Shown piece by piece: positions 1 to 29,590 of a stretch of 64,000 nt of DNA. Both the position numbers and the translations under genes were made by a program. The notes under the pieces are model-generated. The model was not told the DNA's origin and did not search any database. It saw nothing but the letters and a program-made list of their open reading frames with translations. Every line of letters begins with the position of its first letter. Positions within the stretch are counted from its first letter, which is position 1. The stretch spans positions 1,302,001-1,366,000 of the forward strand of contig WWBZ02000051.1 of NCBI GenBank assembly GCA_011503125.2, written 5' to 3'. The DNA is from Botryosphaeria dothidea (lineage: Eukaryota; Ascomycota; Dothideomycetes; Botryosphaeriales; Botryosphaeriaceae).

Positions 1-627
1 GGTCGACATCGTGCGCGCCATCAAGGACCTGCCGCAGCCGAAGCACGAGGGCAAGAGGCTCGAGATCTGGGGCGAGGAGCAGCGCTGGGAGCAGCTGCCG
101 CTGTTTGGTGGAAAGGCCCGCGAGGCCTTGGACATCTGTACGACCCTCTCTCATGCACGCCATCGGAATCGCCATGTGATTGCTAACACGCGACGTCACC
201 AGCCCAGGGGAAATCAGACGACGGCTTCGTGAACGCAAACGCCTTCTTCGCACGTGTGACCGCCGCCGACATCAGCGACCTCAGCCTCTATGCCATTTGG
301 ATTCTCCGCGAAGCGCTCGAGGACCCCGAGGATGAGGATATTGCGAAGACGACGTCGCCTGCACTGCTACAAGCTGCTTCGGTATGGCTGGTTTATGCCG
401 CTCCAAAGCTGTCCAGTCTTAGCAAAGAAGCGAAGCAGTTCGATGGGAAAATGGCGAAGCCGGGAAGCAGTTTGTCCATATTCAAGGATGCTCCTGGGTG
501 GAGAGGGTTCTGTGAAGATCGATGGGACACCTGGATTGAGCGCCTGACTCCTCTGAAGGAGGCCGAAGTCGCAACGGAGGCAAAATCTCTGATCAGCCAG
601 GCCTTGGACCAAGCGTCCAAGGTTTAA
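1..627 (+). CDS. DUF3632-like fungal protein, 3' part (5' end outside window)
   Basis: The frame is open from the left edge, so the start lies upstream. The first visible exon runs to about 137, where a GTACGA donor is followed by a TGCTAAC branch point (180-186). The acceptor is the CAG at 200-202 or, equally in frame, the one at 215-217. The last exon ends with a TAA at 625-627. The segment around RAIKDLPQPKHEGKRLEIWG followed by an N-A-F-F-A-R-V helix resembles fungal DUF3632 proteins, which have no assigned function. No signal peptide or membrane segment is visible in this part. The family call rests on motif memory and is moderate; the gene itself is well supported by coding quality and the splice signals. 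Confidence 0.6.
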
Positions 628-26314: not shown

Positions 26315-28310
26315 ATGTCTGCTTCGGCACCCCGAATTCTGATATATCTGCTCAGGCGGGATCTTCGCCTTGCTGATAATCCCATCTTTCATCATCTTAG
26401 CCAACAGAACGCTTCCAAGTCTCCACCTTTCACCCATGTCCTTCCTGTATACATCATCCCTGCGAACCAGGTTGAAGTATCCGGCTTCCTGAAACCTGAC
26501 ACAAAAAGTCCATACCCGGAAGCACGTAGCCAGGTCGCTGGTTTCTGGAGATGCGGTCCTCACCGAGCTAAGTTTCTTGCCGAGAGCGTGTGGGACCTGA
26601 AGCAGTCTTTAGGTAATATCGGCAGCGACCTTATCATCCGAGTCGGCATGGTGGGGGACGTGCTACAGGATATGCTCTCCTGGTATGGGGGCAACGAAAA
26701 TGCGGCAAACGGTGATAAGGGCACTATATCGGCCATCTGGATGACGGGGGAGGAAGGTGTGGAAGAGAAAAGAGAGGAGCTCGCTGCTAGGACGGCAGCC
26801 GAAGACAGTGGCGTTGATTTCAAACTTTGGACGGACGAGAAGTACTTTGTCGATGAGTAAGTCAACCCCGAGGTTCGCCAGTGACCTATGCTAACCATCA
26901 TCTCGCCTCAGCCGAGACCTACCAGTCAAGGACATCAAAGACCTGCCCGATGTTTACACCACATTCCGGAAGTCTCTGGAGCCTTTACGCGAGCGACCTC
27001 GAGATACCACATCCGCGCCAAAATCAATACCGCCATTTCCTTCTTCATCCTCGATTCCACCGCAGGCCGGCCCATTTACAACACCCGAATCTCTTTCCTC
27101 GATGATTGACTCTCTGCACAAACCTATCGACCTAGCCATGGGCATGGAGCATCCGCCTCAGTGGCCGCCAGGGGCAAAGTCTGCCCATCCATTCACAGGT
27201 GGCGAGGGTCCGGCCCAGGACAGAGTATCGCATCTCATTTCCTCCGGCTCCATGGCCAACTACAAAGACACGCGCAATGGGCTACTCGGCGAAGACTACA
27301 GCACCAAGATCTCCCCCTGGCTCGCCCTGGGCTGCGTAACCGCCCGTCAAGTCCATGCTTCGCTGGTAGCGTACGAAGACGGCAGCTCGACGGCCCCAGA
27401 CTCCTGGAAATCGGCGCCGGGCTACGGCAAGGGGGAAAACGCGGGCACCGCGGCGGTGCGCTTCGAGCTGCTGTGGCGCGACTACATGCGCCTCTGCACG
27501 CGCAAGTTCGGGCCGCGTCTGTTCGACGTCGACGGCTTCCGCGCGGACGAGCAGCCGGAGAACCCGGAGGGCAAGAAGAAGTGGCGCTACCTCGACCGCA
27601 GCAGCGGGACCGGCGACGACCCGGCCAAGACGCGCCAGGCCGTCGAGCGGTTCCGCGCGGGCAGGACCGGCGTCGGGCTGATCGACGCCTCCCAGCGCGA
27701 GCTGTTCCTCACCGGGTACACGTCGAATCGCGCGCGGCAGAACGTCGCGTCGTTTTTGGCGTCGCATCTGGGCATTGACTGGCGTGTCGGGGCGGAGTGG
27801 TATGAGTGCGCGCTTACTGATTATGACTTGAACAACAACTGGGGCAACTGGCAGTACGTCGCGGGTGTTGGCAACGATCCGCGCCAGGGTCGCAAGTTCA
27901 ATCCTGTCAAGCAGGCGCTGGATTATGACAAGGGCGGTGCCTACATCAAGGCTTGGGTCCAGGAGCTACGCGATGTCGATGTGGATGGTGCACAAGACGG
28001 TGGCCGTAAGGGCGAGGAGATGTTGATGGGGCTGTTCCAAGCATGGAGGTTGCCTGAGAGGGAAAAGGAGAGGCTGAATCTGAAGGGCATCGAGTGGGTG
28101 GAGAGACCACTGGTGAGAATTCCTTTTGCAGTGGGCAACAAGGGCGGAGGTGGTGCTGGAGGAGACAACAGAAGAGCTGGGGGACGTGGCGGTAGAGGTT
28201 ATAGAGGAAGAGGGAGAGGAGGAAGGACAAGAAGGCTGGGAGAGGTGGACAGGGCGGCGAAGCAAGGGGCCATCGAAGACGGACAATCTTCCCAGGGGCA
28301 GGACGCATGA
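26315..28310 (+). CDS. Cryptochrome DASH (photolyase/cryptochrome family)
   Basis: FAD and antenna-cofactor binding blue-light protein; CRY-DASH members repair cyclobutane dimers in single-stranded DNA and act in light signalling. Two exons (26315-26856, 26912-28310) with a 55 bp intron, 646 residues. The N-terminal photolyase domain starts ILIYLLRRDLRLADNPIFHH. The FAD-binding domain holds STKISPWLALGCVTARQVH, WRDYMRLCTRKFG, SNRARQNVASFLASHLGIDW and ALTDYDLNNNWGNWQYVAGV with the NDPRQGRKFNP motif, all diagnostic for DASH. The C terminus (from about residue 600) is an arginine/glycine-rich tail with RGG repeats. The ATG at 26315 is the first one next to the conserved start; the frame is open 66 bp further upstream. 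Confidence 0.94.
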
Positions 28311-28624: not shown

Positions 28625-28752
28625 AGCTGCGTGGCGCAGCGGAAGCGGTAAGTCATTACAACTACTCAATTTCAGCCATACAGTTCACTAACAACCTCAA
28701 TAGCGCCGGGCTCATAACCCGGAGGACAATGGATCGAAACCATTCGCAGCTA
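28625..28752 (+). tRNA. Initiator tRNA-Met (CAT) with a 56-nt insert in the D arm
   Basis: Removing 28648-28703 leaves a perfect 72-nt tRNA. The acceptor stem is AGCTGCG/CGCAGCT (28625-28631 and 28745-28751) and the discriminator is A. D stem GCGC/GCGC, anticodon stem CCGGG/CCCGG, loop CTCATAA, T stem AATGG/CCATT, T loop ATCGAAA. The A1:T72 pair, three G:C pairs closing the anticodon loop and A54 in the T loop mark it as the initiator, not the elongator. Box A (TGGCGCAGCGG) and box B (GGATCGAAACC) are present, and a T6 terminator starts at about 28761. The insert lies between tRNA positions 24 and 25, not at 37/38 where tRNA introns normally sit. The copy may be functional after splicing or may be dead. 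Confidence 0.88.
28648..28703 (+). other. Spliceosomal-type intron inside a tRNA gene
   Basis: 56 nt, starting GTAAGT, with CACTAAC (branch-point consensus) 11 nt before the final TAG. The size and all three signals match the protein-gene introns in this window (POP1 56 bp, RAD21 50-53 bp, CRY-DASH 55 bp). It does not show an obvious bulge-helix-bulge pairing with the flanking tRNA sequence. Boundaries are fixed by the D-stem pairing on one side and the GT/AG rule on the other. Confidence 0.75.
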
Positions 28753-29518
28753 AGACTTTCTTTTTTGCACTTTTTTATGGCCTTCTCCACCTGAATCTTC
28801 ATGCGAAGGCCTCGACGAGTCACGACAGCCTCTGCTCCGATCCGAGGAATTCCCAGCGCTGATTGGATGAGTTTTGCTACGAGCTGCTTGATCGTGCCGC
28901 CGCCTTCCCTTTTCAGTAAAACTGGAAGGATCTGAAGATCATGTCCGGGTGTCACAGCAAAGGACCGTGAAGCTCTTTGCGAATGCCAGTTCATCTCAGT
29001 GCAGGCATCGAGGTTCGAACAGCCGTTTTCACATTCCCTCACCTTGCCTGCATTGCCCGACGTGGAAGCGCTCGTTTCTCTGTGTGTTCAATTCGGTTCC
29101 CCGCCAGGTCCCGGTTCAGGTTGTGGAACGTGTGTGCCTCGGCGCCGGACGGTGTTTTTACACGGCAGATCCCTGCACCTTTTTTCCTTTCCGTTCTGCA
29201 TGCACTTCTTCTCCCAAGCATTGGCATGTAGCGGCGTTTTCGTCATCCCCCAACGTTTCCCGGATCCTGCTGGCACATGTTCTCCGCTCTGATCCTGTCA
29301 AACCCGATAAAACAGCCCTCACCTCCCGCACGATCCTACCGTCCTCCACCTGCAGAGAACCACCCCTCCCTCCGTGCAAAACGCACGGCCCTCCCTTGTC
29401 GCCGCCCCACACCTGCGCGCCTGGCCCGCCCCGAAGCGGCACAAAAGAGAAATCCCCCCCCTTTTGACACGCAAAAAAAGATGTTGAACAACTGTTCGCT
29501 GGCAGGCAGCTGATTTCC
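28753..29518. other. Intergenic between two tRNA genes
   Basis: 766 bp. T6 run at 28761 terminates the tRNA-Met gene; A7 run at 29473-29479 is the minus-strand T-run terminator of tRNA-Thr. Small open frames on both strands overlap one another and look like noise. Confidence 0.5.
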
Positions 29519-29590
29519 TGCCCCCTATCGGAGTCGAACCGATGGCCTCGACATTACTAGTGTCGCGCTCTACCACTGAGCTAAAGGGGC
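29519..29590 (-). tRNA. tRNA-Thr (AGT)
   Basis: 72 nt, no intron. Acceptor stem GCCCCTT pairs with AGGGGGC (one G:U), discriminator A at 29519. D arm AGCTCAGTGGTAGAGC holds box A. Anticodon stem CGACA/TGTCG with loop CTAGTAA gives anticodon AGT (read as IGU). T arm ATCGG-TTCGACT-CCGAT holds box B. A run of seven T on the minus strand lies about 40 nt downstream. Confidence 0.95.

Follow-up and report, generated by a model that had tools for sequence, protein, structure and literature searches.

Three of the initiator tRNA-Met genes found in Botryosphaeria dothidea are each interrupted between tRNA positions 24 and 25 by what is very probably a U2-type spliceosomal intron, and the one described here is very probably a working gene that is transcribed by RNA polymerase III (Pol III) and spliced by the spliceosome. 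Textbooks assign tRNA introns to an endonuclease and a ligase of their own, apart from the spliceosome; if the present reading is true, working tRNA genes with U2-type introns would break this division, and Pol III tRNA precursors would be real spliceosome substrates. In the proposed route, the intact A and B boxes would direct Pol III to transcribe the split gene as far as a downstream T run, the nuclear spliceosome would recognise GTAAG, CTRAC and YAG and join position 24 to position 25, and the D arm would then close to give the mature initiator tRNA. That Pol III makes the transcript, that the spliceosome excises the insert and that the product serves in translation is what we infer from sequence; the arrangement itself is real and, judging by its pattern of conservation, probably under selection.

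The split gene

The gene lies in a stretch of 64,000 nucleotides (contig WWBZ02000051.1, positions 1,302,001 to 1,366,000, forward strand), here called the window. Its features, read from the sequence, are listed below together with their counterparts at two further split loci, L002 and L003.

28625-28752, plus strand: initiator tRNA-Met gene, split by an intron
28625..28647, plus strand: exon 1, tRNA positions 1-24 (23 nt), identical in L002 and L003
28632..28642, plus strand: Pol III A box TGGCGCAGCGG, intact, in exon 1
28648..28703, plus strand: spliceosome-type intron, 56 nt, between tRNA positions 24 and 25
28648..28653, plus strand: 5' splice site GTAAGT (GTAAGC in L002, GTAAGA in L003)
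28686..28692, plus strand: branch-site-like CACTAAC, with the branch A at 28691, 12 nt before the intron end
28701..28703, plus strand: 3' splice site TAG (CAG in L002, TAG in L003)
28704..28752, plus strand: exon 2, tRNA positions 25-73 (49 nt)
28713..28715, plus strand: anticodon CAT
28731..28741, plus strand: Pol III B box GGATCGAAACC, intact, in exon 2
28761..28766, plus strand: T6 run, likely Pol III terminator, its first T being base 9 past the gene end

The original prediction of a 56-nt insert at 24/25 with GTAAGT, CACTAAC and TAG is confirmed to the base. The insert sits in the 3' strand of the D stem, between G24 and C25, and its removal leaves a gene of 72 nt with 21 of 21 cloverleaf pairs, anticodon CAT, A1:T72, A54 and A60. 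Although the exons are also compatible with borders shifted one base to the left, GT-AG appears only in the register given here. Initiator tRNA-Met is recognised by its CAT anticodon, A1:T72, three G:C pairs (G29-G31/C39-C41), A54 and A60, all of which are present in the spliced sequences; A54 is named as an initiator feature in PMC3978253. The A and B boxes were assigned from their consensus and are presumably the promoter elements of the gene.

Upstream, an open reading frame of photolyase/cryptochrome type (26895-28310, plus strand; Pfam FAD_binding_7) ends in a glycine/arginine-rich C-terminus, and downstream, 766 bp past the end of the initiator gene, lies an ordinary tRNA-Thr(AGT) gene without an intron (29519-29590, minus strand). 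The initiator gene begins 314 bp past the stop codon of the photolyase/cryptochrome-like frame and on the same strand, a proximity that would suit an insert spliced only in Pol II transcripts crossing the locus, with no functional tRNA as a result. This explanation is scarcely credible, given that the arrangement is repeated at two other loci and that the A box, the B box and the T runs have been kept.

Initiator copies across the genome

A pattern built on the anticodon arm and variable region, with at most two mismatches allowed, returned four initiator loci from the 51.7-Mb assembly, and a DNA search returned the same four. Besides the window gene, these are:

L002, C1:751567: 57-nt GTAAGC...TACTAAC...CAG insert at 24/25
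L003, C1:6143290, minus strand: 54-nt GTAAGA...GACTGAC...TAG insert at 24/25
L004, C29:539543: no insert, intact initiator gene

The original prediction had asked whether every initiator gene carries the insert, and not all do: three of the four loci found have it at the same site, while L004 is intact and intronless. GTAAG, CTRAC and YAG are present in all three inserts, each with its branch A 12 nt before the end, and all three spliced products form 21 of 21 cloverleaf pairs. The 72-nt products show 0, 1 and 1 pairwise differences; those of the window and L002 are identical, and the sole exon change in L003, A49G, retains a G-T pair in the T stem. In L004 the exon join is contiguous (...GGAAGCG+CGCCGGG...), as predicted from the split copies, and paired changes in the acceptor and T stems (AGCTGAA/TTCAGCT; AGTGG/CCACT) keep all 21 pairs.

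The sequences between and around these elements look quite different. With the first 6 and last 17 bases excluded, the three pairs of intron interiors are 0.51, 0.45 and 0.51 identical, where shuffled sequences average 0.53, 0.50 and 0.47. Among 12 comparisons of 150-nt flanks between the four loci, 7 fall in the shuffled range (9-100 of 100 shuffles as good), and the other 5 lie slightly above it (1-5 of 100 as good; identities 0.52-0.56), so that some residual common ancestry of the flanks is possible. The duplications of the initiator gene therefore look old, with exons and splice signals being what was kept, and part of the exon identity among the copies could stem from gene conversion rather than from selection on each copy. 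As a rough figure with the introns assumed saturated, the chance of keeping GTAAG, the CTRAC spacing and YAG in two further copies is ~10^-14, which overstates independence because the introns of the window and L002 share the tail CTAACAACCT and their branch regions are not independent. Neither chance nor artefact can explain how three loci with different flanks each came to have, at one and the same site, an intron whose interior is unlike the others.

The original prediction had left open two readings, namely that the copy is dead or that the gene works and its insert is a spliceosomal intron, and these data speak for the latter: three of the four initiator genes found carry the insert, and the splice signals and mature sequence are conserved where the rest of the intron is not. 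The opposing view would hold that the three split genes are pseudogenes and that L004 supplies all the initiator tRNA. It draws on the intactness of L004, which forms every cloverleaf pair and is followed by a T12 run, such that the cell might live on this gene alone, as well as on PMC4090602, where short insertions in the D and T arms of eukaryotic tRNAs are described as occurring mostly in one of many synonymous genes and as supposed pseudogenes. We nevertheless regard it as improbable, since the insert is in most of the copies found, the splice signals are kept in each split copy, and decay would not spare exons that differ at 0-1 of 72 positions while interiors have fallen to shuffle level and flanks to that level or slightly above. 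No decayed exon or promoter was seen in the three split copies, whose A and B boxes are intact. Because an intact intronless gene exists, splicing cannot be called essential. L004 also supplies one half of what the original prediction had named as marking a pseudogene, which was other intact initiator genes together with a lack of spliced reads.

The original prediction had also considered an introner-like insertion, and this idea found no support. A recently spread introner-like or transposon-like element would account for an insert present in several copies of one gene, but in a genome-wide DNA search that skips very common words (E<=1) each of the three introns matches only itself; with three interiors so unlike, an old insertion preceding gene duplication fits better, and a recent spread is most unlikely.

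If the working-gene reading holds, three split genes out of four would suggest that the cell's tRNA production draws on its machinery for splicing mRNA. We tentatively extend this to the lineage, and would put slightly more weight against the extension than for it: most of its initiator genes may need spliceosomal splicing of a Pol III transcript, a need kept by selection until the interiors lost their similarity, and initiator supply, and with it translation initiation, may be coupled to the spliceosome. Splicing capacity would then be linked to translation initiation and, should RNA data confirm it, the making of tRNA would be a new use of the spliceosome.

Outside this genome, an exact-pattern scan of viral contigs gave nothing, and one of genome contigs gave a single match in a Desulforapulum-titled MAG contig that lies inside a long bacterial open reading frame and was set aside as chance.

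Folding and Pol III signals

In the window copy, the spliced cloverleaf lies 0.9 kcal/mol above the predicted minimum, and the other three copies behave likewise. The unspliced RNAs are predicted to fold differently: the D arm is absent from the best fold of the window precursor, an outer helix of GGCGC with the exon-2 GCGCC surrounds the insert in that of L002, and that of L003 is rearranged. Forcing the cloverleaf on the three precursors costs, as an energy difference, ~9, ~9 and ~12.5 kcal/mol. Compared with shuffles, the three introns themselves have no extra structure (z -0.80 to 0.59).

Pol III transcription is suggested by the intact A and B boxes together with T runs 3' of the genes. 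In addition to the T6 of the window gene, L002 has a T6 at base 14 and L004 has its T12 at base 10; L003 has only a T4 at base 14, a weak terminator, with a T6 at base 73.

Ordinary tRNA introns in the same genome

Canonical introns of eukaryotic tRNAs lie at 37/38 and are removed by the Sen endonuclease and a ligase. Like these, the initiator introns separate the A box from the B box of a nuclear tRNA gene, but they sit at 24/25, outside any anticodon-loop context, and carry GT-AG ends and a branch site. For comparison, Rfam family RF00005 gave at least 61 matches in the genome from a first look in which 63 of 1497 candidates were scored, which falls short of a full tRNA census. From these, 27 matches at separate short loci were sampled, leaving out the longer L036 and L037. 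ARAGORN called 26 of the 27, and by our reading of its output 16 of the 27 bear introns; no D-arm insert was seen in the 26 called loci. With L030 and L038 dropped as the same genes as L029 and L025, 14 of the 16 intron-bearing genes went into the parsing: introns of 9-69 nt fit 37/38 in 11 of them (L021 in two ways), and L020, L025 and L031 stayed unparsed. Two tRNA-Gly(GCC) introns of 66 nt and one of 69 nt in tRNA-Ser(GCT), all at 37/38 (L032, L033, L034), suggest that A and B boxes this far apart can still serve Pol III as a promoter.

These endonuclease-type introns show that the genome has tRNA introns of the usual kind, and D-arm introns are described in archaea, nucleomorphs and Cyanidioschyzon (PMC4090602 and PMC3978253); both could be taken to mean that the tRNA splicing endonuclease removes the insert, as a tRNA intron of non-canonical type. 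A bulge-helix-bulge fold, which the original prediction had named as the observation that would tell against the spliceosome, was looked for at the splice sites as two 3-nt bulges flanking a 4-bp helix. It is absent: across eight registers per copy, the central helix never gains more than 2, 3 and 2 of its 4 pairs, which leaves the spliceosome as the best candidate for removing the insert. Moreover, cutting by the endonuclease leaves the GT-AG ends and branch motifs unexplained, and none of the 11 parsed 37/38 introns begins with GT. We thus consider this alternative very unlikely.

Match to the mRNA introns of the host

By every sequence-level criterion tested, the insert looks spliceosomal. 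We described mRNA-type introns by the pattern GTAAG-(26..52)-CTRAC-(4..20)-YAG, which permits lengths of 43-85 nt only. The window holds 14 matches (13 start sites, one start being common to two), against 2.07 expected in dinucleotide shuffles, none of which reached 14 in 100; the pattern therefore marks mostly real mRNA-type introns in the window. One match is exactly 28648-28703. The 12 others, while not proven introns one by one, are 44-65 nt long with 9-18 nt from branch to end. A codon-usage scan of the window for mRNA introns, which was overly strict, gave 3 candidates.

A further example is the ribosomal protein L3 gene, whose 49-nt GTAAGT...GCTAAC...TAG intron has its branch A 11 nt before the end. 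The best matches of its exon among solved chains are 8oo0, 7olc and 7r81 (443-441 bits; next 396), which we take to be from Chaetomium thermophilum and Neurospora crassa; by this resemblance the host probably belongs to the filamentous ascomycetes of the Pezizomycotina. The lengths of the tRNA inserts (54-57 nt) fall within the host range set by the window matches and this gene. All three inserts share with U2-type introns the GT...AG ends with an extended 5' splice site, the CTRAC distance, the length and the restoration of the exons.

Introns in U6, U3 and other structured RNAs

Spliceosomal introns of fungal U6 were reportedly surveyed by Canzler in 2016. Introns of the same kind occur in U6 and U3 genes of this genome, which further favours the reading that the tRNA gene is functional and its insert spliceosomal. 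In a first look that scored 47 of 2779 candidates for U6, one of at least three matches (L041; G000:C18:304005; L041:1501-1656) is interrupted exactly by a 58-nt GTAAGC..TACTAAC..CAG intron: the sequence leaves the model at GCACTAAG|GTAAGC and resumes past the intron, which ends at TACTAACGTCTCGGTGCAG|GATGAC, with the branch A 13 nt before the intron end. L039 and L040 are full-length, intronless and identical in the stretch compared. The L041 intron contains GTTCGATCC, which resembles a Pol III B box, and in L039 and L040 a B-box-like GAGTTCGACCCC lies just downstream of the T run.

For U3, where 24 of 584 candidates were scored, both of at least two matches have a 5' intron ending ...TGCTAAC...CAG|ACTCATAGG. 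Read by eye, it starts at GTCGACTTT|GTAAGT in L042 (minus strand, above position 1714) and at GTCGACTTT|GTGAGT in L043 (plus strand, below 1505). The Rfam match begins at the last bases of the intron, and exon 1 is thus invisible to the model. The matches to SRP RNA (L049) and RNase P RNA (L050, L051) span their models from end to end.

On contigs C3 and C12 (G000), the same tRNA-Ser and U6 genes recur at near-equal spacing (offsets 1699482 and 1699489), which points either to redundancy in the assembly or to the duplication of at least 28 kb. This repetition is no explanation for the split initiator loci, whose introns and flanks differ.

Relation to known introns

The closest parallels are the introns of fungal U6 snRNA and U3 snoRNA, which are likewise short, with GT-AG ends and an RCTRAC-type branch, interrupt a small structured RNA, can vary in presence among copies, and occur in this same genome (L041, L042, L043); the difference is that the host here is a tRNA, with dedicated splicing enzymes of its own. 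An intron in an initiator tRNA gene also has a cyanobacterial counterpart, a group I intron reportedly described by Biniszkiewicz in 1994 that, unlike the present one, is self-splicing by the title of that work; at 54-57 nt, the present inserts presumably fall well below the size of any group I or II intron. The consensus given for U3 introns is GTRWGT, RCTRAC and YAG, with 6-36 nt from branch to acceptor, and they are reported in the vast majority of the Pezizomycotina analysed; as of 2017, frequent interruption by an intron was known from no small structured RNA other than U3 and U6 (PMC5832005).

The tRNA introns of archaea, nucleomorphs and Cyanidioschyzon resemble ours in their location in the D arm. 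In PMC4090602 and PMC3978253, those of archaea and Cyanidioschyzon are attributed to processing through bulge-helix-bulge motifs, whereas mRNA splice signals take their place here; the nucleomorph inserts of Guillardia are given as 3-24 nt, and their splicing is said not to be understood. Among the papers listed from the open-access literature, none describes a tRNA gene with a spliceosomal intron, and the arrangement is likely new.

Gene finders

The gene finders applied here handle these genes poorly. The window gene was missed by ARAGORN run without introns and by Rfam at the gathering score; in intron mode, ARAGORN wrongly reported a tRNA-Cys(ACA) with an intron of 34 nt there and returned nothing at L002 and L003. 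Because interrupted genes were missed or misnamed by both programs, annotations of other fungal genomes may lack such genes and undercount initiators. Among the ordinary tRNA genes, ARAGORN also misnames L032 as tRNA-Thr.
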